A stretch of 59,420 nt of DNA from Runella sp. (GTDB taxonomy: Bacteria > Bacteroidota > Bacteroidia > Cytophagales > Spirosomataceae): positions 1-59,420 of the forward strand of contig NZ_JAIXST010000346.1 in the NCBI RefSeq assembly GCF_027484545.1, in the 5' to 3' direction. Below, piece after piece: positions 254 to 18,832 of the stretch (positions are counted from its first letter, which is position 1; each line of letters opens with the position of its first letter). The notes beneath the pieces were generated by a model. That model ran no database searches and had not been told where the DNA came from. It was given only the letters and a program-made list of their open reading frames with translations. Both the position numbers and the translations under genes were made by a program.

Positions 254-1378
254 TTAAAGTGAATCTACCAACAAATTATTTAATATAGGCAATTTTGAAT
301 CGTAGTCCTTCTCTTGCCCACGTTTATAGATTATTTCCCCCGATTTATTAATTAAAAGAACTTCAGGGATACCCATCACCCCATAGACATCTCTTAACTT
401 TTTATCACCGAAAATGTGTACCCATTCCATTTTGTATTTTTGAACAGCTTTGCTAAAACTTGTTGAATCATCATCCAAATTGATTGAGATAATCTCTAAT
501 TTATCAGAAGGATATTTTTCTTTAATTTTTAGCAAAGCTGGAATTTCTTTGATACAAGGACCACACCACGATGCCCAAAAGGTTAGTAAAATATATTTGC
601 CTTTATAATTACTTAATTTGATATTCTTCCCTGTTATATCATGTAAATTGAAATCGGGAGCCAAATCTCTTTTTCGTAAATTTCTTGATTTGAGGGTGTT
701 TTCTATATACTCTCCTTCAATGCTATTTTTTAAGCTATCGGGAAAAACTGTATTATATATCTTAAATAAAGTATCCAGAGGAGTAACTGAGTTTACAATC
801 ATCCCTGTTCTGAATAACCAAAATGAATAGTATAGGCTCCCATTCTTTTTAATAAATGCCATGTATTTGTCATTAATTCGTTGTGATTTTTCATGGTATA
901 TTTTTACAGTTTTTGAATCATTTTTTGCAATTTTTCCTTCATTAGCAAAGTAGAAATCTTGAAAGTCTTTTACTTCTTTAGCTTTAAAAGCATTTAGCTT
1001 GTCCTCCCCCATTTGGCTAACTTCTATAGCATTAATCAATTTCCTTTTGCTTAATGGGTCAGGGGACACTGAATTTGCCATAAAAGTTATCGTTGCGGGT
1101 GCGTCAGTTATCCAAAAATTATTGTACTCTCTATATTTAATATTCTTATCTCGATAAGCAATCATAATAGTAGCGTATCTGGAGTAAAAACTATCAGAAA
1201 ATACACATTGTTTGTCCTTGAAATTTGGCGTTATTTCAGTTCGCCTTACTCCATTTTCATAATATATTACAAATGATTTCTCATTCATATTATCAGGAAT
1301 AACAACTTTTAAAGAAAATACCTTTTGAGCAATAATTGCATTTGGTAAAAAAAGAAAAAACATTATTAAAAGTTTCAT
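254..1378 (-). CDS. TlpA/ResA-family thioredoxin-like protein, exported
   Basis: 374 aa. Residues 1-17 form a signal peptide ending ...AIIA-Q. Residues ~18-235 are a Bacteroidota-type N-terminal region with no enzyme motif that I recognise. Residues ~236-374 are a TlpA/AhpC-TSA thioredoxin fold opening with APDFNL. The redox motif WCGPC is at ~271-275 and the cis-proline motif GIPEVLLI at ~61-68 residues after it. Such proteins reduce or shuffle disulfides in the periplasm. It is the last gene of a probable operon: C39-like/VKOR/thioredoxin protein, Cys-rich peptide, then this gene 67 bp downstream. That context suggests a role in folding the peptide. By eye it is more A+T-rich than the VKOR gene, so the cassette may be of mixed origin. 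The family assignment is firm; the substrate is inferred. Confidence 0.85.
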   Translation of the reverse strand: MKLLIMFFLFLPNAIIAQKVFSLKVVIPDNMNEKSFVIYYENGVRRTEITPNFKDKQCVFSDSFYSRYATIMIAYRDKNIKYREYNNFWITDAPATITFMANSVSPDPLSKRKLINAIEVSQMGEDKLNAFKAKEVKDFQDFYFANEGKIAKNDSKTVKIYHEKSQRINDKYMAFIKKNGSLYYSFWLFRTGMIVNSVTPLDTLFKIYNTVFPDSLKNSIEGEYIENTLKSRNLRKRDLAPDFNLHDITGKNIKLSNYKGKYILLTFWASWCGPCIKEIPALLKIKEKYPSDKLEIISINLDDDSTSFSKAVQKYKMEWVHIFGDKKLRDVYGVMGIPEVLLINKSGEIIYKRGQEKDYDSKLPILNNLLVDSL

Positions 1379-1445
1379 AATCTATATAATTTTAAGAGAT
1401 AGGCTTTTTCCTCCAGCCTATCTCCTGAAAATACTTAGTTGGGAA

Positions 1446-1646
1446 TTATACAATTACTACACATCCTCTTCCGAGGCCAGCCACGTTACATTCACACCCT
1501 CCATGTGTTTGAATAGAGCATATATAATCTCTGTTATCATAACATCTTGTACATGCAGATCCTCCATACTCTTCTCCTCCTTTTATTGCTTTCATCTGAC
1601 TGCGAGAGAGGATATTCTCAGAAAAATGCATCAAAATCTTTTTCAT
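1446..1646 (-). CDS. Six-cysteine peptide precursor with double-glycine leader
   Basis: 66 aa. Residues 1-24 look like the leader of Bacteroidota GG-type natural-product precursors: basic start MKKI, then LSRSQMKAIKGG ending in Gly-Gly at 23-24. The predicted 42-residue core is rich in Gly and Cys, with cysteines in the pattern C-x2-C-x7-C-x7-C-x-C-x8-C and a hydrophobic tail CVVIV. An even number of cysteines beside disulfide-forming proteins suggests three disulfides. Thioether or other modification is not excluded, but no modifying enzyme is seen here. The gene lies 29 bp after the VKOR fusion gene and 67 bp before the TlpA-like gene on the same strand. No C39 ABC exporter is present in the window, so the processing and export partner must lie elsewhere. 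Activity (bacteriocin, signal or structural) is unknown. Confidence 0.75.
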   Translation of the reverse strand: MKKILMHFSENILSRSQMKAIKGGEEYGGSACTRCYDNRDYICSIQTHGGCECNVAGLGRGCVVIV

Positions 1647-1675
1647 GTTTGTAATGTTTTAGTTAAACGATTAAT

Positions 1676-3343
1676 TTATGTTGATTCGGCCAAATCCTTT
1701 TCTAAACTCTCTAATAACATTCCAATTTCATTCAATTTATACCAACGCCCCCAATAAAGGCCATCAACATAGAAAGTGGGTGTCCCAGGAACATTAGCCG
1801 CACTTGTCCATGTACAATGTCCATCTGCTGCTCTCTGATAGATTTCAGTATTAGATACAGGGAAGTTAGCAGCCCATTTTTCATAATTCCGAATTGGTTG
1901 TTTGTACAAGCCCTGCAAAGCTGCCGCTACATCACTACCTGCAGCTTGCAATGCCAAAATATGACGAGCAATTTGTCCAACAGAATCATTAATATCGTGG
2001 CAGGTAGTAAAGAAAATATGCGCCTTTATATTAGAAGATAAAGAAAGCAACTCTTCTAATTCATCATGCCCTTTCCCACACGGCCCGCAGTAAGGATTAG
2101 TTACCATCGTAATGGTATGCTCGGCAGCGGGGTTTCCCAAAATAATCGGTTGTAAATCGGCAGGTACGGGAGGCATTCTTTTTTGTTTTGCTAAAAGTGC
2201 ATTAAAGATGTCAGCGTTGTTTTTAAACTTCCGTAGTTCGCGTTGCCACTCGTCAGCTTGTTTTGATTTTAGGAGCAATGGCTTGATAATGAGCCAAAGG
2301 AGGATGGGAAGTGCAAATGCAACAGCCAAGCCCCCTAACCCCCAATGGGGGGATAAAATTGTTCCCCCATTGGGGGTTAGGGGGCTGAGACACTCCACCC
2401 AAATCACTACCTGCACCGCCACGCACAGCGGGCACCACTGCTTGGCTACCCGCCATTGATACCAGATAGACCAAAAAGTGTAAGGCAATGCCAAGAAGGA
2501 AAGAACTCCCAAACCCCATCCCCCAGCCCCTTCCCCTGTGAGGGAAGGGGAGTTTAAAAACCCTTCTCCTGAAAGGAGAGGGGCAGGGGTGAGGTTAAAA
2601 ATCCAGCCGCCCATAAAATAGAAAAAACCGACTTCGCTCCAGCCTAACCAAGACGTGATTTTGGCGGCGGGAGAAGTGAGGATATGGTTGCAGTCGGTGT
2701 GGTTGTTGAGGCGGCAAAGCGAGTCAGTGAAATCGTTGGTTTTGCCATACTGCACCGATAACAGCAAAGCCGTGAGTATCATGCCTATGGCTTTGAGTCC
2801 TAACAGTACTCCTGTGGATAAGTTGGGGCTTTGGAATATGCCTGCGACTGTCAACAGTACAAAGCCCGCGATAATCAGCGGCCAACGGAGGTTTTCGAGT
2901 TGCTCTTTTTGGCGTTTGGCGGCATAATCCTTTTCGCCCGAGGCTTCGGTAGGTTCGGCAATGAATACTACGCCCGACCATTTTTTAAGGAAGTCTTCGC
3001 GTGTTTCGGTGATGCGTTTTCCTTTTTCGGTACGGTAGGTGAACGCTTCGCCAGTAGCCCTTTCTACGAGTACAAATGTGCCACCGCTGGTACGCAGATG
3101 CGCTATGTAAGGCACCTGCAACAAAGCCAACTGTTCAGCATCAATGCGCAGGGCGGCGTTTTCAATGTGATAACGGTCGAGGGTATCGCCCAAACTCAAC
3201 AGGCTCGGATAATCGGGGTGCTGTTCGAGGGTATCGCGCAGGGTAGTGAGCGTAAGGTGTGGGCGTAGGTCACGCAGGTAGGCCCATGCTACTCCCAGTA
3301 GGTTTTCTCGTTCGGTAAAGGAATGGAAGTTTAACGTCGTCAT
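1676..3343 (-). CDS. C39-like / VKOR / thioredoxin fusion membrane protein
   Basis: 555 aa from the ATG at 3343. An upstream in-frame ATG at 3457 is less likely because the extra codons would consist largely of the palindrome at 3408-3447, and a TAnnTTTG box lies between the two. Residues ~10-130 resemble a C39 peptidase domain but lack the catalytic Cys and His. Residues ~160-370 form a multi-helix VKOR domain with the loop cysteines LCR...DC (~212/221) and the active-site WCPLC (~302-306). Residues ~390-555 are a DsbA/thioredoxin-like domain with NPYCGPC (~417) and cis-Pro PGTPTFYVDG. VKOR homologues pass electrons from periplasmic thioredoxins to quinone, so the protein should form disulfides. 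Its neighbour is a six-Cys GG-leader peptide. Two GC-rich palindromic insertions interrupt the VKOR loops in frame. Confidence 0.85.
   Translation of the reverse strand: MTTLNFHSFTERENLLGVAWAYLRDLRPHLTLTTLRDTLEQHPDYPSLLSLGDTLDRYHIENAALRIDAEQLALLQVPYIAHLRTSGGTFVLVERATGEAFTYRTEKGKRITETREDFLKKWSGVVFIAEPTEASGEKDYAAKRQKEQLENLRWPLIIAGFVLLTVAGIFQSPNLSTGVLLGLKAIGMILTALLLSVQYGKTNDFTDSLCRLNNHTDCNHILTSPAAKITSWLGWSEVGFFYFMGGWIFNLTPAPLLSGEGFLNSPSLTGEGAGGWGLGVLSFLALPYTFWSIWYQWRVAKQWCPLCVAVQVVIWVECLSPLTPNGGTILSPHWGLGGLAVAFALPILLWLIIKPLLLKSKQADEWQRELRKFKNNADIFNALLAKQKRMPPVPADLQPIILGNPAAEHTITMVTNPYCGPCGKGHDELEELLSLSSNIKAHIFFTTCHDINDSVGQIARHILALQAAGSDVAAALQGLYKQPIRNYEKWAANFPVSNTEIYQRAADGHCTWTSAANVPGTPTFYVDGLYWGRWYKLNEIGMLLESLEKDLAEST
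2329..2386. repeat. Palindromic element A, in frame in the VKOR gene
   Basis: A perfect 23-bp inverted repeat (left arm 2329-2351, right arm 2364-2386) around a 12-bp A+T-rich loop. The arms are runs of C5 and G5 separated by TAA and AAT. On the coding strand it encodes a Pro/Gly-rich loop (LSPLTPNGG...SPHWGLGG) just after the WCPLC helix of the VKOR domain. The composition is unlike the surrounding gene, which suggests insertion of a small mobile palindrome rather than native coding sequence. Confidence 0.8.
2512..2596. repeat. Palindromic element B, in frame in the VKOR gene
   Basis: A compound palindrome: an outer imperfect inverted repeat (AACC... / ...GGTT) enclosing two hairpins. The left one (2527-2550) has the 9-bp stem CCCCTTCCC/GGGAAGGGG. 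The right one (2561-2583) has a 10-bp stem with one mismatch. It is translated as a Pro/Gly/Glu-rich segment (LTPAPLLSGEG...SLTGEGAGG) between two transmembrane helices of the VKOR domain without breaking the frame. It resembles C/G-run palindromes often seen between genes in Bacteroidota (recalled, not searched). Confidence 0.75.
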
Positions 3344-3379
3344 ACAACCTTTATCTATCTGTAATCTGTTTAGGTAGCA

Positions 3380-3387
3380 CAAACCTA
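3380..3387 (-). promoter_or_regulatory. -7 box (TAGGTTTG) upstream of the VKOR fusion gene
   Basis: On the minus strand this reads TAGGTTTG, matching the Bacteroidota -7 consensus TAnnTTTG, 37-44 bp upstream of the ATG at 3343. I see no clear TTG at the -33 position. That position falls at the edge of the palindrome at 3408-3447, as expected for a regulator-dependent promoter. It supports the downstream start codon. Confidence 0.45.
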
Positions 3388-3407
3388 ACCAATCTTCCTT
3401 TAGGGTC

Positions 3408-3447
3408 TTATCAGGATTTCTGATAAAATTATCAGAAATCCTGATAA
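3408..3447. promoter_or_regulatory. Nested perfect palindrome, probable regulator-binding site
   Basis: Two 19-bp arms (3408-3426 and 3429-3447) are exact reverse complements separated by AA. Each arm is itself a TTATCAG-N5-CTGATAA inverted repeat, so the 7-mer TTATCAG occurs four times in alternating orientation. It lies between the divergent VKOR and XRE-regulator genes, over the expected -33 region of the former. The natural inference is a double operator for the adjacent XRE protein. An mRNA hairpin or a mobile palindrome is possible. Confidence 0.6.
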
Positions 3448-3659
3448 AATAATTCAAATCTTCCTTATAATACTACTACTTTGACCGCTTGATAAGTTTT
3501 TGAAAAATAATATAGCCTTTTTGGCTTTTTTTACTTTATTGACAAAAGTTACACGATACCCTACAAGAAAATTAGATCAAAGCTTCTGCCTATCATGGTA
3601 AAGAGCGGTCGTTTTTTGATTAAAACAGTCATTAACCAAAATCTAATAAATCGTAGCGT

Positions 3660-4034
3660 ATGAATGAGAATATCCTTGGCCTAAAATTGCGCAAACGTCG
3701 GAATGAACTGGGCAAGACGCAGGAGTGGGTTGCGTTGGAGTTAGAAACCTCCATGAAAGTAAAAGTGAGCCAGCCTACCGTCAATAACTGGGAAAACGGT
3801 AAATCCTGTCCTTCCCTTCCACAGCTTCGGGCATTGGCCAAAATCCTCGGCCTCAAACTATCTTATTTAGTATCAGATACAGATACAGATACAGATACAG
3901 ATACAGATACAGATACAGATACAGATACAGAAAAATTGCAGCTCATGCTCGAAGAATACGCCGAACGATGCCAACGACTGGAAAAGATGAACGATAGACT
4001 GATGAAAGAAAATGAGCAACTGCGGGATAAATAG
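3660..4034 (+). CDS. XRE-family regulator with (Asp-Thr)9 linker and C-terminal coiled coil
   Basis: 124 aa. Residues ~8-66 are a Cro/C1-type helix-turn-helix (LRKRRNELGKTQEWVALELE, then VSQPTVNNWENGKSCPS). Residues 73-90 are nine Asp-Thr dipeptides encoded by a hexanucleotide repeat. Residues 91-124 are a charged heptad-like helix (LEEYAERCQRLEKMNDRLMK) that probably dimerises. The product is a small DNA-binding regulator with no ligand domain. It is transcribed away from the VKOR/peptide cassette across a ~315-bp control region (from 3343) that holds the nested palindrome, so autoregulation and control of the cassette are likely but inferred. Changes in repeat number would alter the linker by two residues at a time without a frameshift. 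Confidence 0.85.
   Translation: MNENILGLKLRKRRNELGKTQEWVALELETSMKVKVSQPTVNNWENGKSCPSLPQLRALAKILGLKLSYLVSDTDTDTDTDTDTDTDTDTEKLQLMLEEYAERCQRLEKMNDRLMKENEQLRDK
3874..3930 (+). repeat. Hexanucleotide tandem repeat (CAGATA)9.5 in the XRE gene
   Basis: Nine and a half perfect copies of CAGATA, coding for alternating Asp and Thr between the HTH and coiled-coil parts of the regulator. Perfect identity of all units points to ongoing slippage or recent expansion. Confidence 0.95.
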
Positions 4035-6599: not shown

Positions 6600-7607
6600 T
6601 TAGAAATAGCGAGGAGTAAGAATCTTGCTCTTGCTGAATCCAAACTCGTAACGCAGCATGATTTCGTGGGTTGGAATGTTCAAAAACTTGCGACTGTCGT
6701 TCAGATTATTACGAGTCCAGTCATAAGAATATCCCAAGCGAAACTGATCTGACAATTGAAGTTCGACCATACCAACGAGCGCGTCTCCTTTCAAAACATT
6801 TCCATCGATTTGTTGAATTTTGCCGGCATAGGTCGAAAAGCGATTATGACGGTACGACATTCCGAAAGCAACACGGTCGTTAAACCAAAGATTCAGGTTT
6901 CCGTCCAATGAAAGTCCTACGCCGCTCACGTAACGAGCCATCATAGAAGGCTTGAGTTTTACGTTGTTGCGTCCGATTACAAACCCTGCTACTGCGTAGT
7001 AGTGACGACGTACTTTGGCACGTTGATCGTTGTCGTAATCGTTCAGGTTGTTCTCAATCAAATAAGGCACTGAAATTCCTAAGTAAGAACGATCGTTGCT
7101 AAGATAAATACCAGTTCCGAAGTTTGGCAAAATTTTAGAAACATTACTGGCAAATGCAGGATCTGACAGGTTGTTTCCAAGATTAGCTTTAGACAAATCC
7201 CAGCGGAAACTCATTGCGCCCCCCTGCAAACCTAATGCCAAAGTCGAACGTTCGCCTATTTTGATGCGAAAAGCGTAAGAAAGCATAGCACCTGTCCAGT
7301 TTTCAAGACCGATTTGGTCATTGAATAATTGAAGGCCAAGGCCTACTCGTTCACGATTGACGGTCATATCAATGCTGAAAGTTGCCGTCTGCGGTGCGCC
7401 TGCCATTCCACCCCATTGGTTGCGGTAGAGAGCGGTTGCACTTAGGACATCGCGACTGCCGGCGTAGGCGGGATTGAGGGCCATCATGTTAAACATGTAC
7501 TGCGAGAACAATTTGTCCTGCTGGGCCCAGGTTTTACTGCTGCCGATCAACGTGATCAGCAGCAGTAATATCGTGCACTTTTGTTTGATGAGATTGGTCA
7601 TCGTCAT
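6600..7607 (-). CDS. PorP/SprF-family T9SS-associated outer-membrane protein
   Basis: 335 aa with a signal peptide to ~28 (...TWA-QQDKLFSQYMFNMMALNPAYAG). The segment LFSQYMFNMMALNPAYAGSRD is the diagnostic N-terminus of the PorP/SprF family; the rest is a series of amphipathic beta-strands for an outer-membrane barrel. In Flavobacterium SprF is needed to display the adhesin SprB, and type B sorting domains require a cognate SprF-like protein. The gene starts inside the stop codon of the giant adhesin (TAATG overlap at 7607), so the two are probably translationally coupled and form a cargo/partner pair. Confidence 0.93.
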   Translation of the reverse strand: MTMTNLIKQKCTILLLLITLIGSSKTWAQQDKLFSQYMFNMMALNPAYAGSRDVLSATALYRNQWGGMAGAPQTATFSIDMTVNRERVGLGLQLFNDQIGLENWTGAMLSYAFRIKIGERSTLALGLQGGAMSFRWDLSKANLGNNLSDPAFASNVSKILPNFGTGIYLSNDRSYLGISVPYLIENNLNDYDNDQRAKVRRHYYAVAGFVIGRNNVKLKPSMMARYVSGVGLSLDGNLNLWFNDRVAFGMSYRHNRFSTYAGKIQQIDGNVLKGDALVGMVELQLSDQFRLGYSYDWTRNNLNDSRKFLNIPTHEIMLRYEFGFSKSKILTPRYF

Positions 7608-10600
7608 TAGCGGTTAATGGTCATAAATCGACTTGATTTCTTAATCTCACCGCCGTTTTGGTCTTGCAGAATCACATTGTAGAAATATGTTCCGGCAGGC
7701 ACCCCTTGGTTGTTATTAGCTACACCTACGTTAGCTCCTCCCTCCCAATCGTTCTGATAATCGTTGTTACGATAGACCAAATTCATCCAGCGGTTGTATA
7801 TTTCAAGAACAATCTTCGTGCCAGATGGATGACGAATCACAAATTTATCGTTGATTCCGTCAGCATTTGGTGAGAAACCTTCAGGGATAAACAAACCACC
7901 GTCAGAAGTAATCACAATTGGTGTAAATTCTGCTTCAGTCAAGCCTGTTGGGTCATTGTCTCCGTTCAGATCAGGTACCAAGCCGTTGGTTGAAAGATCT
8001 GTCACAGAATTCTGACCGGCTAAGGCTGAGCCAAGTGCGCGGTTGAGATAAGGCGTCAGGCGTCCGTCGTTCGTTACGTTGATAGTAAAGAACAATGAAT
8101 CTGTACGTCCACCTGCCAAACGACTTTGTTGCGCGAGCAAGAGATTTACATCGCGGTCTCCGTCGAAGCCAGGATTGATACGTAAGCTGCTTGAGTCATT
8201 GGCAGTCGGTGTACCTACTAACTGATAGCTTGCGCCGGTCAGAGAACTGTATACTTTAGTCAATGAGTCAGATACCTGAACGTTGGTCAACACACCTGCA
8301 CCGTAGTTTTTCAAGATAACACGGTAAGTGATGTTCAAACTTCCATCCCCTTTACGTAAGGTATCTTTGATAGACATCGCCAATCCAAGTAAACCTTTGC
8401 CTGGAGTCGAGTTGAGTGATACCGGCGTAGATTCGCTGTTGTTGCGTGGATCCAAGTCATTGTCAGGGTCAACATTATCACCTGTCGTTGACGTATCGGC
8501 CGTTGCTACACCACCTTGCGTTAAACCTGTACCGATAGCGATATTGTAGAACTTCGTTACGGAATCAGGATTGTAAAGCGAAACAATTACCGCTAAGTTG
8601 ATACTGCGAGTGGCACCTTTTGGTAATGTACTCAAAGAGTCAACCAATAAATTGGTGAGCAGCCCTTGACCTGTATAGGTCGAATCTACTGTCAACCCGC
8701 CGTCTGCAGTAACAAGTGGTTTACCAACAATTGCCGCCTTCGATCCAAATGTGAGTCCCAAGTCATCCTTCACCTGGATTTTTTTGAGGTCACTTGTACC
8801 AAGGTTAGTTATACTGATGGTGTAAGGAATCTTGAATTTACCATCTCCGACGACAATCGGTCTGCCTGCTGATTTAGATAAACCAATCAAAGCGCTTGGC
8901 AAATCGAAACGTACAGGAGTCGAGTTATCAACAGGAGCATTCACGACAGTACCTTTATTAGAAGCATCTTTCACCGGTGTACCGCTTCCGTTACCCGAAG
9001 CAACTACGCTTCCTAAGAATAGTCCGGTATTTCCGTTTGGCTTGATGTTGATAGTGACCAAAACCACATTTTCAGCACCTACCGCCAATGAACTTCCTGA
9101 ACCTAAGATGTTCTTATCAGAAGTTCCGTTGTAACTGCCATTCGGTACCAATGTACTTCCGGCATTTACAGTTGGAGCACCTACTACTGTAAAGGTAGCC
9201 GGTAATCCTATGTGACCCGTAATGCTGTCTACTACCTGAACACCGGTTAATGGAATGTTACCAACGTTTTTCACCGTGATTTTATAAGTAACATCGTAGC
9301 TGACATCAGCGCCGTCGCCTTTCTTAACGATATTATCAACCGCCAAGGCTACTCCGATTGCAGGTGAGACAGTACCATCGCTTACTACTATACTTACCGA
9401 AGACTGGTTGTTAGAACCGTTAGGATCTACTTGGTCAGCGTAAGTGATGGCAACTTTGTTGGTTACTTGGTTACCCGGTTTTTTCGCTTTGGCAACTACC
9501 GTTAATGTATCGCTGCTTCCTGCGGTCAGAGACGCAATCCGTGTGGTCAATACGCCACCCGTGTTGGTCATTCCGGAAGTAGAAACCACTTCCAATTCTG
9601 ACGGCATGATATCGCGAACATCTACGTTGGTTGCCTTGTGCTGACCGTTGTTTTTCACTACGATCTTGTAAGTAACATTTTCACCTACCAGCGCCACTGC
9701 TTTGTTAGCAGTCTTGTTGATGCTCAAATCAGAGCGGAGTGTATCGGTAGCACAATCGAAGATTTTCACTTCAATTGCGGCCGGTGCACTATAACAACCG
9801 TCTTTCTTATAAACGACGTAGTATGTGCCGCCTCCTACTGCTTCCGGTGTGCCTACAAGGCAGGTACATGCCAATTGCGCTGCTGATCTGAACTGAGTTG
9901 TATAAGTTCCGTTACCTTCAAGAGCTGTGGTCAAATCTACCGTGGTACTTGGGCAAGTATTACGAAGGTTTTTCACGATTGGTGTTGGCAGCGCTTTTAC
10001 AACTACTGTAATATAAGCGGATGGAACTGAGCAACAACGTTTAACATCGACAAGTGCATAAGCATACGTACCCGGCTCGGTTACGTTCCATTGTCTGATA
10101 CCATCAGAAGCAGGGAACAACACTTTACCGTCTTTAAACCATTTCACTTGATAATCCTGTTCGCTGGCTTTCAGTTTCACAGTGTCACCTTGACAGATCG
10201 TGATTGTTTGAGGCAATGTATCTGCTTTGAGCGTACCGTTTACGATGATTTGAGGTCTGAACTTGATACCTTCAAAGATCAGTTTCAAATCGTCTTTCCC
10301 AGCTACGCATTTGCCGCTACCATCAGGATCGTTGGTGGTTAGGGTGAGCATAACCTCACCCTTAATCAAATCTTCCAACGATGGATAGTAAGTAGCATCG
10401 AGCGCAAGCGGATTGCTGAACTTACCTGTTCCGTTTGTTGACCAAATTGCACTTGTGGCAACTCCACCGATTTTACCATTGAGTTTGTACTCGATAGCAG
10501 CACAGATAGCGGCGTCTCCACCGGCATCTGCCGTAGCAGGGTTGGTTTCACAAGGCGTTGTTTCGCAAGGCGAAATCAGGACGTGGATAGCAACACCTTC

Positions 10601-13600
10601 ACTGTAGCAACCGACAGTTGAGCGGAAGAATGCGTAGTAAGTACCACTCACTCCTACTGCTAACGGATTAGCTACCGTTGGCGAGCCTGGCGTATTTCCT
10701 TCGTGGAACTCAAGTACTAAACCTGCACCTGTTGTGTAGTTCTTCACCGCTGTGGCGAGATCTACCGTTTTCACAGGGCATACATTAGCTAGGCTAACCA
10801 CTTCAGGTGTTTTCACTTTCGGAGCCACTATCACATTTAAGGTGTTTGAAGCTACACTTTTGCAAGAAGCATTGTTGCAGCAATAAGCAACGTAAATAGT
10901 GCTGGCAGCAGGAACAATCGTAATTGAGCTTCCTACCTGACCGTTTGACCATTGGATGTATCCTGAACAAGCAGTCAACGCTGTCAGAGTTACTGACTCA
11001 CCATAGCAAAGGTTAGTTTTGGAAGCCTGAACCGTTGGAGCGGCAGGTACGCCAACCACGATGGTAAGCGGTGACGATGGCGCACTTTCACAATTGCCTA
11101 CTTTACACTTAACAGTGTAAGTAGTTGTTGTTTCGGGCGTTACAGAAATCTCAACACCTGTTGCGCCATTAGACCATAGTACCGTTCCTTCGCAACCCGA
11201 AGCTTTTATGCTTACTGTTTCACCTTTGCAAATTGCTTTGGTTGAGCAGAGGATGGTTGGAGGGTACACTTTCGTTACTACAACAGTTACTGCATTTGAG
11301 GCATCGCTTGTGCAATCACCTTTCTTACATACTGCGGTATAAGTAGTTATACCAAGTGGGTTCACAGTAATGCTGTTACCCGTTGCACCGTTTGACCAGT
11401 TAATTGTACCGCCTTCGCAACCTGTTGCTGTGAGTTTTACGCTACCACCCTCACATACTACTGCGGCGTCTGCCGAAATAGATGGAGCTTTGCAGTCAAT
11501 CACTTTCACAGTTACCGGTATAGAAGCTTGGCTGGTACATGCTCCCACTTTACATACTGCTGTATAAGAAGTAGTTACCGTTGGAGTTACCACAATACTG
11601 GCTCCTGCTTTACCGTTTGACCAAGTGATTTCACCATCGCAACCAGTTGCAGTCAATACCGATGTTTCACCCAATTGGATTACTGCCGGAGCAGCTGATA
11701 CCGTTGGAGGTGTTACAGGGTATACTTTGATTGTGTAGTCAGCCGATATTGGGCTTGTACAGTCACCTACTTTACATTTTGCAGTATAGGTAGTAGTTAC
11801 GGTTGGATGAATGACGATAGCAGGACCTATTTCACCTGTTGACCAATAGACTGTGCCTGCGCAGTTTTTCACCTGAAGCGTTACGCTTTCACTAGGACAA
11901 ACTTTATCAGTACTACAGATTACAATTGGTTTTTCAGGAGTTGGTACTACTGTAACCGTTGCAGAACCCGGAGCGCTTTCACATTTACCGATTGTACATT
12001 TGGCAGTGTAGGTGGTGGTTGCATTTACAACTACGTCAATGCTTACACCTGTTGCACCTGTACTCCAGCTAATGGTTCCGCCTTTACAACTGGCAGCCGT
12101 CAATTTAACTGTGCTGCCTGCACAAACCGTTGACGATGGACTTACAGTAATTGTTGGAGGCGTTGAAATGTTGTCTACCGTTACCGTTACATACCCCGGT
12201 GCACTATCGCATTTACCATTTACGCGGCATGATACTGAGTAAGTTGTCGTCGTTGTTGGCGTTACTGTGATACTTGCTACACCTGTTGCACCTGTACTCC
12301 ATACATAAGTACCTGTACAGCCAGAAGCAGTCAATACTGAACTTTCACCTGCGCAAATACTTGGTTTAGAAGCATATACCGAAGATACCGCACCAGCTGT
12401 AGTCACCGTAATCTTCACTTTATTTGATTTAGGACTTTCGCAAGTTCCTACCTTACAAACCGCAGTGTATTCAGTAGTAGCCGTAGGGCTTAGTGTAATA
12501 CTTACACCTGTTGCACCATTTGACCAGAGAATTGTACCATCACAAGTACCACCCGCAGTAAGGGTTGTGCTTTGACCTGCACAAATCAAGGTTGGCTCAG
12601 CAGAGATTGTTGGTGCGGTAGCATTACCCACTGTGATTGTCACAGGAGCAGAAAGTCCGCTTACACACTTACCGAGTGAACATGTAGCTGTGTAAGTAGT
12701 CGTAGAAGCAGGGCTTACTACAATACTTGCACCTGTTACACCGCTTGACCAAGTTACGATACCTTCACAACCTGAGGCAGTCAATGTAACACTGCCACCG
12801 TTACAAATAGTAGTCGATGGGCTTGCAACCACGGTTGGAGGCGTTACAGGGATAACTTTGATAGTGTAATCTTTCGATCTTGCTTTGCAGCCACCATTGT
12901 TACAAACCGCCCAATACGTAGTCGTTGTCGTTGGATAAACCACAATGGCAGGGCCTGTTTCTCCCGTTGACCATTCTACAATACCTGCACAATTTGTCAC
13001 CTGAAGCGTTACGCTTTCACCCGGACAAACTTTATCGGTGCCGCAAATAACTACAGGAGTTTCTCCTTTAGGGATAACATTGATTGTTACGCTCGCTTTT
13101 GGACTTTCACACTTGCCAATTTTACAATATGCTGTGTAAGTTGCAGTTTCTGTCGGTGTTACCACAATCTGTGCTCCCGTAGCGCCTGTACTCCATACGA
13201 TTGTACCTGCACAATTAGAGGCAGTCAATGTTGCCGAACTTCCCAAACAAATGGTTTTAGAAGAGCTAACTACAATAACCGGTGTCGTTGGCGTGTTTAT
13301 GTAAATCGTAGTTGGATTTGACGGACCGCTTATGCAACCGTTTTTGTTACAAACAGCTGTATACGTAGTGGTTTCGGTCGGTTTCACAACAACGCTTGCG
13401 CCTATTGCTCCATTAGACCACATAATTGTACCACCTGCACAACCGATTGCATAAATAGTTGTACTGTCACCAGGACAAAAATTGGTAGTTGCACAAGCCA
13501 AAACAGGAGGTTCAGGTTGTTTGATACAGTCTACTTTAATTGTTACCGTTGAAGTATCGTTATTCGCTTTCGTCGGATCGTTGTTCAGTCCTTTTACAAT

Positions 13601-16600
13601 CGCTGTGTTCGTGATTGTTCCAATCGCGTTGATTGTTGCACGGATTTGGAGAGTACGATTTGCACCTACTGCCAAGTTTCCGATTGTCCAAACACCTGTT
13701 CCTACATTGTATTCAGCAGCAGGGTTTGCACTTACAAACGTCAACAAAGAAGGTAATACATCATTAACTGTTACACTTGGTGCATTTATAAGACCGTTGT
13801 TAGAAGCAACTACGCTATACGTAATTGTCTGACCCACTGTGTATGGAGACGGTTCGATAACTGACTTCACAACTGCTAAATCTGTTACGCAAGGCTTGAT
13901 TTCCACTTTTACTCGGCCTGCATTGCTGTATGTTCCGCAAGATGCTACTTCAAATAAGTAGTAGTACCCTGATACACATACATTTGTAGGATCTGCTACC
14001 AACGGATCCGTTGGCTTAGGACCTGTACGCCATTCTAAGCGACCACCCGGTGTACGAGGCTGTAATCCATGCGCAGTTAAATCAATGCACAATTTAGGAC
14101 AATCATTTGTAAGATCATCACACGTTGGAGTTGGAGGAGTTGGACATACAACTGCAATGTCTTCGTTGTCTTCGTCATCCTCTTTAGGTGTCCCTGTACC
14201 ATTGCCCGGAGAAGAGTCTTGATCAGGTTGATCTGACTTGCTTACTTGAGCAAAGTTCTTGATTGTTCCTGTTCCAACCACTTTGGCGACAAACGTCAAA
14301 GTAATGGTTTGAGCTACTTCAATTTTAGCAATTTTACCAGTTAACACTGTTCCAGCAAGCGTGAACGCAGCGTCACCTGATACATATTGTAAACCTGCCT
14401 GTAACGTATCGGTTACTTCAACGTTAGTGGCTACAGATGGACCGTCGTTAGTTACTTTAATTGTATAAGTAACGTTGTCATTCTGCTGTGGCGTTTTGTT
14501 GCTAACCGTCTTCGTCAAACTCAAATCAGCAGGACAAAGTTGGATTGTCACAACGATTCTACCAGGATTGCTGTATTCGCCGCAAGCTGCTACTTCAAAT
14601 ACGTAGTAGTTACCCGGAGTACAAACCTTAGTTGGGTCAGCTACCAATGGCGACTGAGGCGTATTTCCTGTATGCCATTCCAATCTGCTGCCCGGAAGAC
14701 TTGGTGCTGTAACGTATTTAGTCAAATCAACACATTTAATCGGACACTCGTTTTTAGCATCTTCACAGGTTGGAGTTGGAGGAATCGTACATGTTTTAAC
14801 ACGTACCAGTTCGTTGTCGTCGTCGTCTTCTCCTTTAGTGAAGCCGTTACCCAGTATCGAATCTTTGTCTTTTACAGTATTGCCGTTTTTATCTTTGGCA
14901 TCCTTGATCTGTGCAAAGTTCGTCAACGTAGTTCCTGCAAAAGTAGCATCCACTTTTACCGTGACGTCAACCGTAGCGGTTGCACCCGGTGCCAACGGTC
15001 CAGCTATCGGTACATTCAAGGTCGCAATCCGACCTGCTACTGTCCAGTCCGTATCGGCCAAAGTCATACCAGCAGGTAATGAATCTAACAGTGCAATAGC
15101 GGTTGCCGTCATTGAACCTTCGTTTTTAACCGTCAAAGTGAAGTTTACCAAATCGCCTAGCGCTACATCTGTCGATTGGCCAGCTGCTAATGATTTGTTC
15201 AACGCCAAACGAAACGTGGTCAAACCTGCACCTATGGTCAAGTCACTGCGTTTCTGCGGTGTCAAGACCACAGCAGGGGTGATACCCGTAATTGGATCGG
15301 CATCACTATCCGTTACATCTGAACCCGTATTAGGTTTCAAACTTAATTTACATGTATCTAGCAGAGTCTTCGTATCAAACTGTACGTAGTAAGTACCTAC
15401 CAGTAAGTTAGTAAACAAGTATTTACCATCTGTACCTGTCAACATCGAATCTTTCTTCGCGACAGGACCGCTGGCAGTGCCCGTCCATAAGATTACCTTC
15501 ACGCCTTTCACACCTGGTTCACCAGAATCCTGTTGGCCGTTATCATTACGATCTTTCCATACAAAATCTCCAATGCTGCCCAATGGCGTAACACGTACCG
15601 GTTCGTCATCGTCATCATCTTCTGATTTAGTAAAGCCGTTACCCGGTGTCGAATCTTGGTCTTTTACAGGGTTGCCGTTTTTATCTTTGGCATCCTTGAT
15701 CTGTGCAAAGTTCGTCAAAGTAGTTCCTGTAAAATTAGCATCCACTTTCACAGTGATGTCAACCGTAGCGGTTGCACCTGGTGCCAATGGACCGGCAATT
15801 ACGTTATTCAACGTTGCGATTTGACCCGCTGCTGTCCAATCTGTGTCGGCCAAACTCATACCTGCCGGTAATGAATCCGTCAAGGCAATGTTGGTCGCCG
15901 TCATTGAACCTTCGTTTTTAACCGTCAAAGTGAAGGTTACTAAATCGCCTGGCAATACATCTGCTAATTGGCCGGCTGCCAACGATTTGTTCAACGCCAA
16001 ATCGAAATTAGTTACCGCTGCATCTATTGTTGGATTGTCCTTATTAATTCCTGATTTGGTAGGATCAATAACTACTACCTGAGAGAAACCTGTAGTTGGA
16101 TCTGCATCGTTATCAGTTAAATCTGAACCTTGATTTGAATTCAAACTCAATTGACATGTATCAGGCAAACTTGTTGGATCAAACAATACTTTGTAAGAAC
16201 CCGAAGTTAAGTTGGTAAACAGATATTCACCATTAAGACCGGTAAATGTGGTATCAATGGGTGAGAACGTGCTACCGCTATCTTTATATAGTATTACACG
16301 TACATTTTTCACACCCGGTTCACCGGAATCCTGCTGGCCGTTATCATTACGATCTTTCCAAACAAAATCTCCAATGCTGCCAAGTGGGCTGTACAATGCA
16401 CCGTCAATCGTAGGATTGTCTTTGTCAATACCGCTTTTGGCAGGATCAATTTTAACGACCGGACTAATACCGGTGGTTGAATTGAAATCGCTGTCTTTGG
16501 TATCGTCACCGCCTTTGTTGGTTGAATCACTCAATACGCAACCTGCTGGTAAAGTGGTTTTAACTATTTGTACAAGGTAATCGCCTTTTAGCAATCCGCT

Positions 16601-18832
16601 GAACGTATAGAAACCTTGTTTACCGCCATTCGTTATCGTAAGTGTTGAATCCAGTTTAGCTAAAGGCTGACCGCTTACATTTGCACTCCACAAAATAACT
16701 TTGACGCCGTTTACGCCTGACTCGGTTGCATCCTGAATACCATCGTTATCTGTATCTTTCCATACATAATCTCCGATACTACCCAAAAAATTACGCAATG
16801 CACCGTCAATCGTAGGATTGTCTTTGTCAATTCCACCTTTGATAGGATCAAGTGTTACGATTTGGCTAAGTCCCGTTGTTGGGTTAAAGTCGCTGTCTTT
16901 CGTATCATCTCCACCTTTATTAGTAGAGTCACTTAATACACAACCTGCCGGTAAAGAGCCTACCAATATTTTAACTTGATATTCTCCTTTTGACAAAGAT
17001 TCAAATGAGTACCATCCTAAAGCTCCCCCAACCGGATTGTTAGCCGTTAGAGTGATATCAACAGGAACGAAAGCTCCCGCCTGATCTTTCTGGAATAAAA
17101 CAACCTGAACGTTGTTGACTCCTGAATTACCATCATCCTGAATACCATTATTATTCAGATCTTTCCATACATAATCTCCAATACTTCCCAACGGACTAAA
17201 CAAAGCTCCATCTACCCTTGGATTGTCTTTCAAAATTCCACCTTGCTCCGGATCTAATGTCACCACTTGGCTATAGCCTGTAGTAGGATCAATATCGCTG
17301 TCTTTAGCATTGTCTCCACCTTTATTAGTAGAGTCGCTTAAAATACAGCCCAGTGGCAATGTGGTTTTGTCTAACTGTACAATATAATTTCCTGCTAACA
17401 ATCCATCAAAGTGGTAATAACCGCCTTGCGTCGAATCTCCCGGATTAGTAGTAGTAAGCATTGTGTCAAGAGGTGTAATTGGCACTCCTCCGACTGCACT
17501 CCATAAGATAACACGGACACCATTTACACCCGGCTCGCCCGCATCCTGAATACCGTTATTAAAAACATCTTTCCATACAAAATCCCCAATACTTCCAAGC
17601 GGCCCTGAAATCACTACAATCTCGCAACAACCGGTTGCAGGACAAGCATTCACTTGGGCACTAAACGCAAAACGGCCGGTACCTTTAATAATTAAGGTAT
17701 CGCCGTTCACAGAAGCACTATCGGAAGCAGCACCTGTAATAGCTCCGCTTCCTACTTTGGTCCACACAACATTAGAATAACCGACCACAGAAAGTGACAC
17801 GGCGTACTCATTGCCCGGATACCACAAAATCGGCACTGAAAAACAGGCCGTTGCATAATCATCTTCACTTAAAGTACCGTTGCCCGGGTTGGAGTCGGAA
17901 TCTACCTGACCCGCATCCATCGACATTACTTCTACAATATTGAAATAAACGCCTCTTCCTGTAACAGTTCCTGTCAATTCAAGTTTAACAGAATCACCAG
18001 AAGCGATGGTAGGAATATTCCACAAACCAGTTGCCGGATTGAAAGTTGTTCCTGCCTGAGGAGTATTAGCCGTCAGGTCAGCTCCGTCCGTTGGGAAAAG
18101 ATCTTTAACTATCACTCCGGTAGCAGCATCCGGTCCATCATTTTTTGCATAGACAGTAAATTTGATAGATTGTCCAATGGTAGGTTGAGCAAAGTCAATT
18201 TTCTTGGACAGTTTAATATCTACTATTTTTTGGCCTAATGCTGTAAATACAGTCAGTAGAACCAAAGTAAAAGCCCCCATTAAGGATTTAAAGGGTCTTA
18301 TCAAGCGATTTTTCGGGAAAGACGAATCAATATAGACTATTGATTCATAGCTATTTACTTCCCCCTCCCAGTCGGGCGGGGAAGTAGATACCCACCGTCT
18401 CGATTTTTCATCGAAACGCGCCCCCAGAACACGCTGCTTATACTGAGGAGAAATGGATAACTTACTCATAGTCTGTGAAATAATTGATTGAAGGGATGTA
18501 AATTTTTGGGTAAAATCTTCAGCACGGATGCCGTAAAGTTTGCCAGTGGGCGGTGATGCCCCAGGGAGATGATAGTGCTGATCAATTCCAACTGAATTGA
18601 CCCAAAAAGCCTTTTGGCCTTTCTGAAAGAGTTTTGGTTTATACGGAATTTGATATCCCGGATTTCTCTCTACCGCTCTCTTTCGATTAGGCAAGATCAA
18701 TTGAATACAAGAGGCGGCACCTTTCAAAAAAAGCCAAAAGGTTTCTCCTAAAGAAGTGTTTTTTGTACTGCTTTTGCGCTCAAAATTCCGGCTTGTTTCA
18801 AGGTCGGGTGTTGTGGTAAATCGTGCTTTCAT
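7607..18832 (-). CDS. Giant T9SS surface adhesin (DUF11, SdrD-B, Ig-like repeats, type B CTD)
   Basis: 3741 aa as the longest open frame. A Sec signal (PFKSLMGAFTLVLLTVFTALG-Q) appears only at residues ~180-200, so the start may be Met185 (18280), Met122 (18469) or Met1 (18832). After it come a DUF11 domain, a PKD/Ig-like domain, five SdrD-B/Cna-B domains (each opening LGSIGDFVWKD or similar; first codons near 17590, 17190, 16785, 16385, 15585), DUF11 domains between and after them, Cys-containing Ig-like modules, 12 tandem ~75-aa Ig-like repeats (~13530-10830), more Ig and DUF11-like domains, and a type B gliding/T9SS sorting domain (last ~90 aa, from FIPEGFSPNADGIND). It should be exported by the T9SS and anchored outside the cell, acting like SprB in adhesion or gliding. 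The ligand is unknown. Confidence 0.92.
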   Translation of the reverse strand: MKARFTTTPDLETSRNFERKSSTKNTSLGETFWLFLKGAASCIQLILPNRKRAVERNPGYQIPYKPKLFQKGQKAFWVNSVGIDQHYHLPGASPPTGKLYGIRAEDFTQKFTSLQSIISQTMSKLSISPQYKQRVLGARFDEKSRRWVSTSPPDWEGEVNSYESIVYIDSSFPKNRLIRPFKSLMGAFTLVLLTVFTALGQKIVDIKLSKKIDFAQPTIGQSIKFTVYAKNDGPDAATGVIVKDLFPTDGADLTANTPQAGTTFNPATGLWNIPTIASGDSVKLELTGTVTGRGVYFNIVEVMSMDAGQVDSDSNPGNGTLSEDDYATACFSVPILWYPGNEYAVSLSVVGYSNVVWTKVGSGAITGAASDSASVNGDTLIIKGTGRFAFSAQVNACPATGCCEIVVISGPLGSIGDFVWKDVFNNGIQDAGEPGVNGVRVILWSAVGGVPITPLDTMLTTTNPGDSTQGGYYHFDGLLAGNYIVQLDKTTLPLGCILSDSTNKGGDNAKDSDIDPTTGYSQVVTLDPEQGGILKDNPRVDGALFSPLGSIGDYVWKDLNNNGIQDDGNSGVNNVQVVLFQKDQAGAFVPVDITLTANNPVGGALGWYSFESLSKGEYQVKILVGSLPAGCVLSDSTNKGGDDTKDSDFNPTTGLSQIVTLDPIKGGIDKDNPTIDGALRNFLGSIGDYVWKDTDNDGIQDATESGVNGVKVILWSANVSGQPLAKLDSTLTITNGGKQGFYTFSGLLKGDYLVQIVKTTLPAGCVLSDSTNKGGDDTKDSDFNSTTGISPVVKIDPAKSGIDKDNPTIDGALYSPLGSIGDFVWKDRNDNGQQDSGEPGVKNVRVILYKDSGSTFSPIDTTFTGLNGEYLFTNLTSGSYKVLFDPTSLPDTCQLSLNSNQGSDLTDNDADPTTGFSQVVVIDPTKSGINKDNPTIDAAVTNFDLALNKSLAAGQLADVLPGDLVTFTLTVKNEGSMTATNIALTDSLPAGMSLADTDWTAAGQIATLNNVIAGPLAPGATATVDITVKVDANFTGTTLTNFAQIKDAKDKNGNPVKDQDSTPGNGFTKSEDDDDDEPVRVTPLGSIGDFVWKDRNDNGQQDSGEPGVKGVKVILWTGTASGPVAKKDSMLTGTDGKYLFTNLLVGTYYVQFDTKTLLDTCKLSLKPNTGSDVTDSDADPITGITPAVVLTPQKRSDLTIGAGLTTFRLALNKSLAAGQSTDVALGDLVNFTLTVKNEGSMTATAIALLDSLPAGMTLADTDWTVAGRIATLNVPIAGPLAPGATATVDVTVKVDATFAGTTLTNFAQIKDAKDKNGNTVKDKDSILGNGFTKGEDDDDNELVRVKTCTIPPTPTCEDAKNECPIKCVDLTKYVTAPSLPGSRLEWHTGNTPQSPLVADPTKVCTPGNYYVFEVAACGEYSNPGRIVVTIQLCPADLSLTKTVSNKTPQQNDNVTYTIKVTNDGPSVATNVEVTDTLQAGLQYVSGDAAFTLAGTVLTGKIAKIEVAQTITLTFVAKVVGTGTIKNFAQVSKSDQPDQDSSPGNGTGTPKEDDEDNEDIAVVCPTPPTPTCDDLTNDCPKLCIDLTAHGLQPRTPGGRLEWRTGPKPTDPLVADPTNVCVSGYYYLFEVASCGTYSNAGRVKVEIKPCVTDLAVVKSVIEPSPYTVGQTITYSVVASNNGLINAPSVTVNDVLPSLLTFVSANPAAEYNVGTGVWTIGNLAVGANRTLQIRATINAIGTITNTAIVKGLNNDPTKANNDTSTVTIKVDCIKQPEPPVLACATTNFCPGDSTTIYAIGCAGGTIMWSNGAIGASVVVKPTETTTYTAVCNKNGCISGPSNPTTIYINTPTTPVIVVSSSKTICLGSSATLTASNCAGTIVWSTGATGAQIVVTPTETATYTAYCKIGKCESPKASVTINVIPKGETPVVICGTDKVCPGESVTLQVTNCAGIVEWSTGETGPAIVVYPTTTTTYWAVCNNGGCKARSKDYTIKVIPVTPPTVVASPSTTICNGGSVTLTASGCEGIVTWSSGVTGASIVVSPASTTTYTATCSLGKCVSGLSAPVTITVGNATAPTISAEPTLICAGQSTTLTAGGTCDGTILWSNGATGVSITLSPTATTEYTAVCKVGTCESPKSNKVKITVTTAGAVSSVYASKPSICAGESSVLTASGCTGTYVWSTGATGVASITVTPTTTTTYSVSCRVNGKCDSAPGYVTVTVDNISTPPTITVSPSSTVCAGSTVKLTAASCKGGTISWSTGATGVSIDVVVNATTTYTAKCTIGKCESAPGSATVTVVPTPEKPIVICSTDKVCPSESVTLQVKNCAGTVYWSTGEIGPAIVIHPTVTTTYTAKCKVGDCTSPISADYTIKVYPVTPPTVSAAPAVIQLGETSVLTATGCDGEITWSNGKAGASIVVTPTVTTSYTAVCKVGACTSQASIPVTVKVIDCKAPSISADAAVVCEGGSVKLTATGCEGGTINWSNGATGNSITVNPLGITTYTAVCKKGDCTSDASNAVTVVVTKVYPPTILCSTKAICKGETVSIKASGCEGTVLWSNGATGVEISVTPETTTTYTVKCKVGNCESAPSSPLTIVVGVPAAPTVQASKTNLCYGESVTLTALTACSGYIQWSNGQVGSSITIVPAASTIYVAYCCNNASCKSVASNTLNVIVAPKVKTPEVVSLANVCPVKTVDLATAVKNYTTGAGLVLEFHEGNTPGSPTVANPLAVGVSGTYYAFFRSTVGCYSEGVAIHVLISPCETTPCETNPATADAGGDAAICAAIEYKLNGKIGGVATSAIWSTNGTGKFSNPLALDATYYPSLEDLIKGEVMLTLTTNDPDGSGKCVAGKDDLKLIFEGIKFRPQIIVNGTLKADTLPQTITICQGDTVKLKASEQDYQVKWFKDGKVLFPASDGIRQWNVTEPGTYAYALVDVKRCCSVPSAYITVVVKALPTPIVKNLRNTCPSTTVDLTTALEGNGTYTTQFRSAAQLACTCLVGTPEAVGGGTYYVVYKKDGCYSAPAAIEVKIFDCATDTLRSDLSINKTANKAVALVGENVTYKIVVKNNGQHKATNVDVRDIMPSELEVVSTSGMTNTGGVLTTRIASLTAGSSDTLTVVAKAKKPGNQVTNKVAITYADQVDPNGSNNQSSVSIVVSDGTVSPAIGVALAVDNIVKKGDGADVSYDVTYKITVKNVGNIPLTGVQVVDSITGHIGLPATFTVVGAPTVNAGSTLVPNGSYNGTSDKNILGSGSSLAVGAENVVLVTINIKPNGNTGLFLGSVVASGNGSGTPVKDASNKGTVVNAPVDNSTPVRFDLPSALIGLSKSAGRPIVVGDGKFKIPYTISITNLGTSDLKKIQVKDDLGLTFGSKAAIVGKPLVTADGGLTVDSTYTGQGLLTNLLVDSLSTLPKGATRSINLAVIVSLYNPDSVTKFYNIAIGTGLTQGGVATADTSTTGDNVDPDNDLDPRNNSESTPVSLNSTPGKGLLGLAMSIKDTLRKGDGSLNITYRVILKNYGAGVLTNVQVSDSLTKVYSSLTGASYQLVGTPTANDSSSLRINPGFDGDRDVNLLLAQQSRLAGGRTDSLFFTINVTNDGRLTPYLNRALGSALAGQNSVTDLSTNGLVPDLNGDNDPTGLTEAEFTPIVITSDGGLFIPEGFSPNADGINDKFVIRHPSGTKIVLEIYNRWMNLVYRNNDYQNDWEGGANVGVANNNQGVPAGTYFYNVILQDQNGGEIKKSSRFMTINR
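10830..13530 (-). repeat. Twelve tandem ~225-bp repeats encoding Cys-rich Ig-like domains
   Basis: Each unit encodes ~75 aa with the pattern C-x-G...L-T-A-x-x-C-x-G...W-S-x-G-x-x-G...T-T-Y-T-A-x-C-x-x-G-x-C. Almost every copy has four cysteines. Copies 3-4 and 8-9 share the linker signature IKV(I/Y)PVTPPTV and near-identical openings, so a block of about five units was probably duplicated. Boundaries are approximate. Confidence 0.8.
14800..16400 (-). repeat. Two ~800-bp near-identical SdrD-B + DUF11 units
   Basis: The SdrD-B opening near 16385 and that near 15585 are almost identical over ~70 bp. The DUF11 blocks that follow each (about 15600-16010 and 14800-15215) are also nearly identical, giving a period of ~800 bp. 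Much higher identity than among the other SdrD-B copies implies a recent tandem duplication. Confidence 0.75.
18324..18390. repeat. Pair of palindromes in the giant gene's N-terminal extension
   Basis: First, GAATCAATA-tagac-TATTGATTC (18324-18346), a perfect 9-bp stem. Second, 18357-18385, ACTTCCCC...GGGGAAGT with an inner CCC/GGG stem, extended by five more matches with one mismatch (to 18352-18390). Both are translated in frame if the long N-terminus is used. The second resembles the C/G-run palindromes in the VKOR gene. Confidence 0.65.

Follow-up and report, generated by a model that had tools for sequence, protein, structure and literature searches.

The left end of contig C259 in the 354-contig draft genome of Runella sp. 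(GCF_027484545.1, contig NZ_JAIXST010000346.1) carries a small cassette in which a precursor peptide with a double-glycine (GG) leader lies between a gene for a C39-like/VKOR/thioredoxin fusion and a TlpA-like thioredoxin gene, opposite an XRE-family regulator. The window analysed is the entire contig of 59,420 bases, and the features of the cassette are collected in Table 1. A preliminary description of this DNA had named the precursor between the two redox genes, the opposing regulator and a palindromic control region, and all of these were recovered where it had placed them; the start of a glycosyltransferase gene at the contig end, read from 215 to 1 on the reverse strand, was absent from it. 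In Pfam, the TlpA-like protein matches AhpC-TSA (1.6e-20) and the regulator HTH_3 (3.7e-13). From its sequence and its recurrence, the locus probably directs the biosynthesis of a disulfide-rich double-glycine peptide that is secreted, of the bacteriocin kind or more generally of the ribosomally synthesized and post-translationally modified kind, with the fusion as a leader-guided, cytoplasm-facing disulfide synthase.

Table 1. Features at the left end of the window
Feature	Position	Strand	Basis
UGT/GT1-like glycosyltransferase, N-terminal 71 aa, truncated by contig end	1..215	-	Translation and identity to the L041 gene
TlpA-like thioredoxin, 374 aa, WASWCGPC, hydrophobic signal-peptide-like N-terminus	254..1378	-	Pfam; signal peptide by eye
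RNA hairpin just 3' of the peptide gene, inside the operon	1394..1426	-	Folding against shuffles
Precursor peptide, 66 aa: 24-aa GG leader and 42-aa core with six Cys	1446..1646	-	Translation, leader pattern
C39-like/VKOR/thioredoxin fusion, 555 aa with its start at ATG 3343; the open frame reaches back to TTG 3457	1676..3343	-	Pfam
In-frame palindromic repeat within the fusion gene, predicted TM5-TM6 loop	2329..2386		Repeat search
Tandem operator-like palindromes TATCAG-N5-CTGATA, 21 bp start to start	3409..3446		Motif search
XRE-family regulator, helix-turn-helix followed by nine in-frame copies of GATACA, coding (Asp-Thr)9	3660..4034	+	Pfam HTH_3

The precursor peptide and its recurrence

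The leader of the window precursor ends LSRSQMKAIKGG and places isoleucine at −4, methionine at −7 and leucine at −12 before the terminal GG, the three hydrophobic positions that characterize double-glycine leaders, while all six cysteines lie in the core and none in the leader. Recurrence was followed in 50 loci, namely the window and 49 fetched stretches, some of which share a genome or are clipped where a contig ends. A strict pattern for the leader, which makes no demand on cysteines either way and selects hydrophobic residues at −7 and −12, gave 46 distinct peptides in 36 of the 50 loci, every one on the strand of the fusion. The co-occurrence test proposed in the preliminary description is thus positive, and its view that a disulfide-rich double-glycine peptide has here a regulated cassette with redox enzymes of its own is supported. 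None of the 46 leaders contains a cysteine, position −4 is V, I or L in 45 of them (−7 and −12 are also hydrophobic, but selected by the pattern), and the number of core cysteines is even in 43 (binomial p 2e-10, with related peptides treated as independent). A chance small open reading frame was rejected, since the same pattern matches no small frame across 90 kb taken from elsewhere in the genome, nor any in five single-base shuffles of the window. The second set consisted of another 40 loci of the phylum. There, a leader pattern slightly wider than the first found 22 peptides in 13 loci, 20 with an even number of core cysteines. For 24 of the remaining 27 loci (all but L182, L186 and L196), a second scan used a looser pattern, biased by its requirement for at least three cysteines, and 20 gave a candidate peptide, the one in L183 without a convincing leader.

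The leaders are much better conserved than the cores, with mean pairwise identities of 0.49 and 0.17 respectively among 27 aligned peptides. Only in locus L049, from another genus of the same family, does the window core have a clear homologue; the peptides are 57% identical with six of six cysteines aligned. The two fusions share only 38% identity, which suggests that peptides move between cassettes separately from their enzymes. Loci lacking the peptide, or with unconserved cysteines, had been named beforehand as evidence against such a cassette, and this is in part what is seen: a minority of loci has no recognizable peptide, cysteine patterns vary and most cores are unrelated, whereas the cysteines are kept in the one clear core homologue. 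Across 200 genomes of the family, the window peptide was matched in 16 (its own included), many of them through the leader part only.

Two leader families known from Bacteroidota, TIGR04149 and NF047798, describe related GG leaders; 23 of the 27 peptides match the former at E up to 0.1 and 20 the latter. The window peptide falls below both cut-offs (15.7 bits against 25 for TIGR04149, 18.9 against 23.5 for NF047798) and is assigned to no known leader or peptide family, while among ten peptides of the phylum set that were scanned, L195 passes NF047798 and L190 passes TIGR04149. TIGR04149 is named for radical SAM partners, unlike the cassette loci, where no convincing radical SAM CxxxCxxC enzyme was found among open reading frames of at least 250 residues in the 50 loci. 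The five matches of the CxxxCxxC scan are four thioredoxin motifs of fusions and one MiaB/RimO-like protein (by eye), and a radical-SAM-modified peptide was dropped as a candidate.

The fusion protein and its place in the membrane

The three parts of the fusion agree between Pfam and PDB profile searches, being a PCAT1-like C39 domain, a VKOR core and a DsbA-like thioredoxin. Pfam gives VKOR at 5.9e-14, C39 at 3.1e-9, aligned only from profile position 25 onward, and Thioredoxin_4 at 1.2e-4, just under the family cut-off; the PDB search gives the C39 domain of PCAT1 at 5.9e-9, the DsbA-like 1z6m at 2e-8 and, for the VKOR part, the Synechococcus VKOR-thioredoxin 4nv2 as a weak match (0.0054). 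The window protein has all its redox cysteines, the loop pair C210/C218 and the CxxC C304/C307 that define the VKOR family, as well as C419/C422 of the thioredoxin domain. Among 84 aligned homologues, chosen as full-length (43 from the first set and 41 from the phylum set), every one of the 41 phylum proteins has all six, and in the first set each site keeps its cysteine in 42 or 43 of the 43 proteins.

The preliminary description had linked the C39-like part to leader cutting, and this role is not upheld. The catalytic cysteine motif is absent from all 84 homologues and the catalytic histidine from 83, the window protein included, so that an active C39 peptidase is rejected; both are kept in six aligned C39 exporters from the same cassettes. 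In LahT, leader residues Val-4, Leu-7 and Leu-12 fit into a hydrophobic groove that lies some 20 Å away from the active site; degenerate C39-like domains are discussed as substrate recruiters (both from parts of PMC6363468). Positions −4, −7 and −12 of the cassette leaders correspond to these LahT contacts. Because the catalytic site is lost while the leader residues match the groove contacts, the C39-like domain of the fusion is probably a leader-binding domain and not the cutting enzyme. The C39-like domains of type I toxin exporters likewise have a degenerate C39 fold discussed as a recruiter (PMC6363468, in part), but in the fusion this domain is joined to a disulfide-forming enzyme, not to an ABC transporter.

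The fusion gene varies in several ways. It contains palindromic repeats in frame, at 2329-2386 and at about 2510-2590, both in predicted external loops; the first kind occurs at 32 sites in the genome (up to one mismatch), some of them within exporter genes on contigs C347 and C278. The gene is split over two frames in L045 (5998-7685, R. limosa), L068, L078 and L081, as pseudogenes or through sequencing errors. Shorter relatives of 450-477 residues stand directly before an exporter gene in L079, L080 and L083; their match stops near residue 429, and their thioredoxin part may be missing or different.

Hydropathy of the alignment shows six hydrophobic segments in the fusion, and canonical VKOR-thioredoxin enzymes have one membrane helix fewer at the N-terminus. 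Six helices would place the C39-like domain, the loop cysteine pair, the CxxC and the thioredoxin domain together on one side of the membrane. With helix ends fixed on the window sequence and transferred to the homologues by alignment, lysine and arginine make up 17.8% of loops and flanks on the active-site side and 2.7% of the opposite loops in the first set, with the same direction in 43 of 43 proteins; in the separate phylum set the values are 17.9% and 2.1%, with the same direction in 41 of 41. Three standalone VKORs of the same family (L094, L098 and L118) have the reverse bias, with 6.7-9.1% on the CxxC side against 13.6-15.6%. They come from 13 VKOR loci considered as controls, among which L113 and L114 were set aside because a four-helix form was not clear in them, L095, L096, L119, L120 (500 aa, further helices), L097, L121 and L122 were not used, and L117 is a fusion relative. 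The matching loop of the Synechococcus enzyme also carries lysine or arginine, as seen in the alignment. Since these residues are denser on the active-site side in all 84 homologues, the positive-inside rule predicts that the C39-like, VKOR and thioredoxin sites probably face the cytoplasm, opposite to canonical VKOR, a point absent from the preliminary description.

The known Synechococcus VKOR-thioredoxin (3kp9, 4nv2) shares with the fusion the VKOR core, the loop and CxxC pairs and the thioredoxin domain, with a weak sequence match. The fusion adds an N-terminal helix, a C39-like domain, the opposite charge bias and a peptide cassette. Precedents for oxidation on the cytoplasmic side are the VKOR of Aeropyrum pernix, according to the title of a report cited in PMC12453122, and an engineered inverted VKOR (PMC5471842, in part). 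Cytoplasmic-side oxidation is what they share with the reading of the fusion given here, and they are archaeal or engineered. We know of no leader-binding domain or peptide pathway in either.

This placement has points against it. It is a prediction from sequence, the charge controls are only three, lack the loop cysteines and have helix ends set by eye, and canonical VKOR enzymes, including the sequence relatives 4nv2 and 3kp9, act outside the cytoplasm, oxidizing in the periplasm. The TlpA partner also looks periplasmic, with a signal-peptide-like start (by eye), so oxidation could follow export. An ordinary periplasm-facing VKOR/DsbA system, in which export and cutting precede oxidation and the C39-like domain is vestigial or periplasmic, is nevertheless unlikely. 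It would require a 150-residue domain outside the cell membrane, ahead of which no signal sequence is seen by eye, or an odd number of helices; the charge bias runs the other way in every aligned homologue; and the C39-like domain is present in all of these full-length proteins, with an expected ligand, the GG leader, that is cytoplasmic.

Neighbouring genes, control and distribution

The fusion is widely scattered in Bacteroidota, but in a minority of genomes. Matches at E up to 1e-5 occur in 47 of 149 genomes, and at E up to 1e-30 in 41 of 395 genomes drawn from the phylum (12 of 170 genera), the window genome being counted in both. Because the match in 7 of the 47 (G001, G013, G028, G044, G055, G128 and G142) is confined to the C39-like domain, several times in a frame as long as an ABC transporter, about 40 genomes carry the fusion or pieces of it. 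The closest named relatives with the fusion are R. aurantiaca, Runella sp. CRIBMP and R. limosa. No account of a C39/VKOR/thioredoxin fusion with GG peptides was found among the listed titles and abstract openings of open-licence papers; PMC10352776 and PMC8939145 each contain no mention of VKOR or thioredoxin, and PMC4555120 none of C39 or Bacteroid.

Around the 50 fusions, the commonest neighbour clusters are a C39 ABC exporter (32 loci), XRE (27), a GT1-like glycosyltransferase (27) and TlpA-like proteins (26), followed by HlyD (21), a GT2-like glycosyltransferase (7) and DUF6734 (7). Clusters are named by Pfam matches of a few members, and one member of the HlyD cluster (L085) has no Pfam match. 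A plasmid of Spirosoma oryzicola (L200) carries the fusion, a glycosyltransferase, a GG peptide, a second glycosyltransferase, an exporter and HlyD; the peptide, of 62 residues with six core cysteines, is unannotated and lies at 10972-11160 between the two glycosyltransferase genes. A plasmid of Parabacteroides distasonis carries the fusion, a 59-residue protein whose leader-like part ends AG before six cysteines, a DUF4369-thioredoxin, a LanC-like gene, two glycosyltransferase-type genes and an exporter. In logic the cassettes resemble the glycocin clusters (sublancin, glycocin F, thg/org), a likeness in gene content; shared are a GG-type leader, a Cys-rich core, dedicated thiol-disulfide proteins and, in many of the loci, a glycosyltransferase and a C39 ABC exporter (parts of PMC12457901). 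The cassettes differ in having a single membrane fusion with a dead C39 domain, VKOR and thioredoxin, in the UGT/GT1-like glycosyltransferase that is usual, and in their place in Bacteroidota.

The glycosyltransferase clusters in 27 loci and the peptides with odd core cysteines (3 of 46 and 2 of 22) would fit a fusion that acts as a reductase, keeping leader-bound cysteines reduced or sparing one for S-glycosylation, and CGPC is the motif of reducing thioredoxins. Bacterial VKOR modules, however, couple to quinone in the oxidizing direction, and the cysteine number is even in 63 of 68 distinct cores, so that a reductase is improbable.

Seeing no ABC exporter nearby, the preliminary description had proposed a distant or shared transporter. 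That observation reflects the end of the contig, which lies on the left side of the cassette within the next gene, and a standalone cassette with a distant exporter is unsupported; exporter genes are present in most of the related loci. That next gene encodes the glycosyltransferase, whose fragment is 90% identical over residues 1-71 to the L041 glycosyltransferase (UDPGT match 1e-10). The proposed search of the same genome for a C39 transporter and HlyD did find four C39 exporter loci, and HlyD on C347, but no intact exporter: the gene on C347 carries an in-frame TAG, the one on C331 is divided between two overlapping frames, the one on C21 breaks off within the membrane domain, and on C278 the ATPase domain is matched over just 80 of its 137 positions. 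Contig C347 (L093, 1-9658) is a scrambled relative of the cassette, with repeated C39 fragments, a glycosyltransferase remnant, a peptide gene interrupted by TAG, TlpA, the exporter with TAG and HlyD.

The gaps among the export and glycosylation genes could come from assembly breaks or from decay. A decaying remnant, with fusion, peptide and regulator intact and glycosylation and export lost, would be compatible with the explanation preferred for the family, and is possible but somewhat doubtful for the window copy. Traces of glycosyltransferase in this genome are the first 71 residues, the stop-containing remnant on C347 and a 33% relative on C163, the exporters are in pieces, and the second peptide is interrupted. 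Breaks at repeats in so fragmented a draft can, however, mimic decay, and the redox cysteines, operator-like sites and peptide of the window are intact.

The palindromes between the fusion and the divergent XRE gene start at 3409 and 3430. With one mismatch allowed, the mean over 100 dinucleotide-shuffled windows is 0.11 matches, and two matches occur in no shuffle; the 7.1-Mb genome has three exact sites, two of them this pair. At the same threshold both sites stand at the same place in L044 and L045 and one in L041 and L042 (the second degenerate by eye), while L043 has none there. In L041 and L043 a second pair, also 21 bp apart, lies upstream of another cassette unit; near the XRE genes of other loci among the 50 there is no such site. 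The repeat in the XRE linker (window 3876-3929) ranges from three to nine copies across six Runella, as GATACA in the window (9), L041 (3), L042 (9) and L043 (9) and as GAAACA in L044 (3) and L045 (8), and a regulator tuned by linker length is possible. A protein with carboxypeptidase-regulatory and TonB-plug domains, identified by Pfam in L041 and by similarity elsewhere, stands beside cassettes in L041 (8405-10420), L043 (8416-10545) and L093 (2838-4853), in the first two within the unit behind its own tandem operator-like sites; a role in immunity or uptake would be a guess.

Downstream of the window peptide gene, 70 nucleotides fold at -22.0 kcal/mol (z -5.2), against shuffles that kept single-base composition only. 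By the same test z is below -2 after 28 of 46 peptide genes, and after 3 of 55 fusion, 2 of 27 glycosyltransferase, 0 of 36 TlpA, 1 of 29 exporter and 10 of 28 XRE genes. The hairpin may favour the peptide over the enzyme message. Further along the window, 7607-18832 encodes a very large repeat-rich protein of 3741 residues, followed on the same strand by genes for 335 and 794 residues, the latter OmpA-like (named by eye).

Proposed pathway and its meaning

From the computed gene order, domains, loss of the C39 site, leader conservation, cysteine parity, charge bias and recurrence of operator-like sites, we infer a topology, an electron flow, an order of steps, cutting, export, repression and a role. 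The dead C39 domain would hold the GG leader, the thioredoxin domain would oxidize the core cysteines, and the VKOR domain would hand the electrons to a membrane quinone, so that the core is oxidized in the cytoplasm with its leader still attached. In related cassettes the glycosyltransferase probably decorates the core. A C39 ABC exporter would then cut after GG and export the core, and the periplasmic TlpA-like protein may repair disulfides. The divergent XRE protein is predicted to repress the operon through the two sites, two helical turns apart, and the role of the peptide is probably antagonism.

Several observations sit less easily with this pathway. By the strict pattern 14 of the 50 loci have no peptide, and 4 of the 24 have none by the looser one; the few odd cysteine numbers do not fit full pairing. 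L074 retains the C39 histidine, and 10 of the 84 homologues have some cysteine in the first 35 positions, outside the motif. At all four C39 exporter loci of this draft genome the gene lacks a single intact frame, glycosyltransferase residues 72-386 turned up nowhere in the genome, and no immunity gene was identified. For the wider proposal, a Bacteroidota class of cassettes whose VKOR is inverted by nature and, steered by a leader-gripping dead peptidase, ties disulfides in hypervariable peptides within the reducing cytoplasm, ahead of export, we put the chances at about even.

Specialists would not expect a VKOR that is repeatedly linked to a leader and whose active sites are predicted to face the cytoplasm. 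If the proposal is true, disulfide formation would be a leader-directed modification inside the cytoplasm, a compartment usually thought to prevent stable disulfides. The fusion gene would then be a genome-mining handle for hypervariable Cys-rich peptides of Bacteroidota, and the enzyme a possible tool to make disulfide-rich peptides in the cytoplasm.

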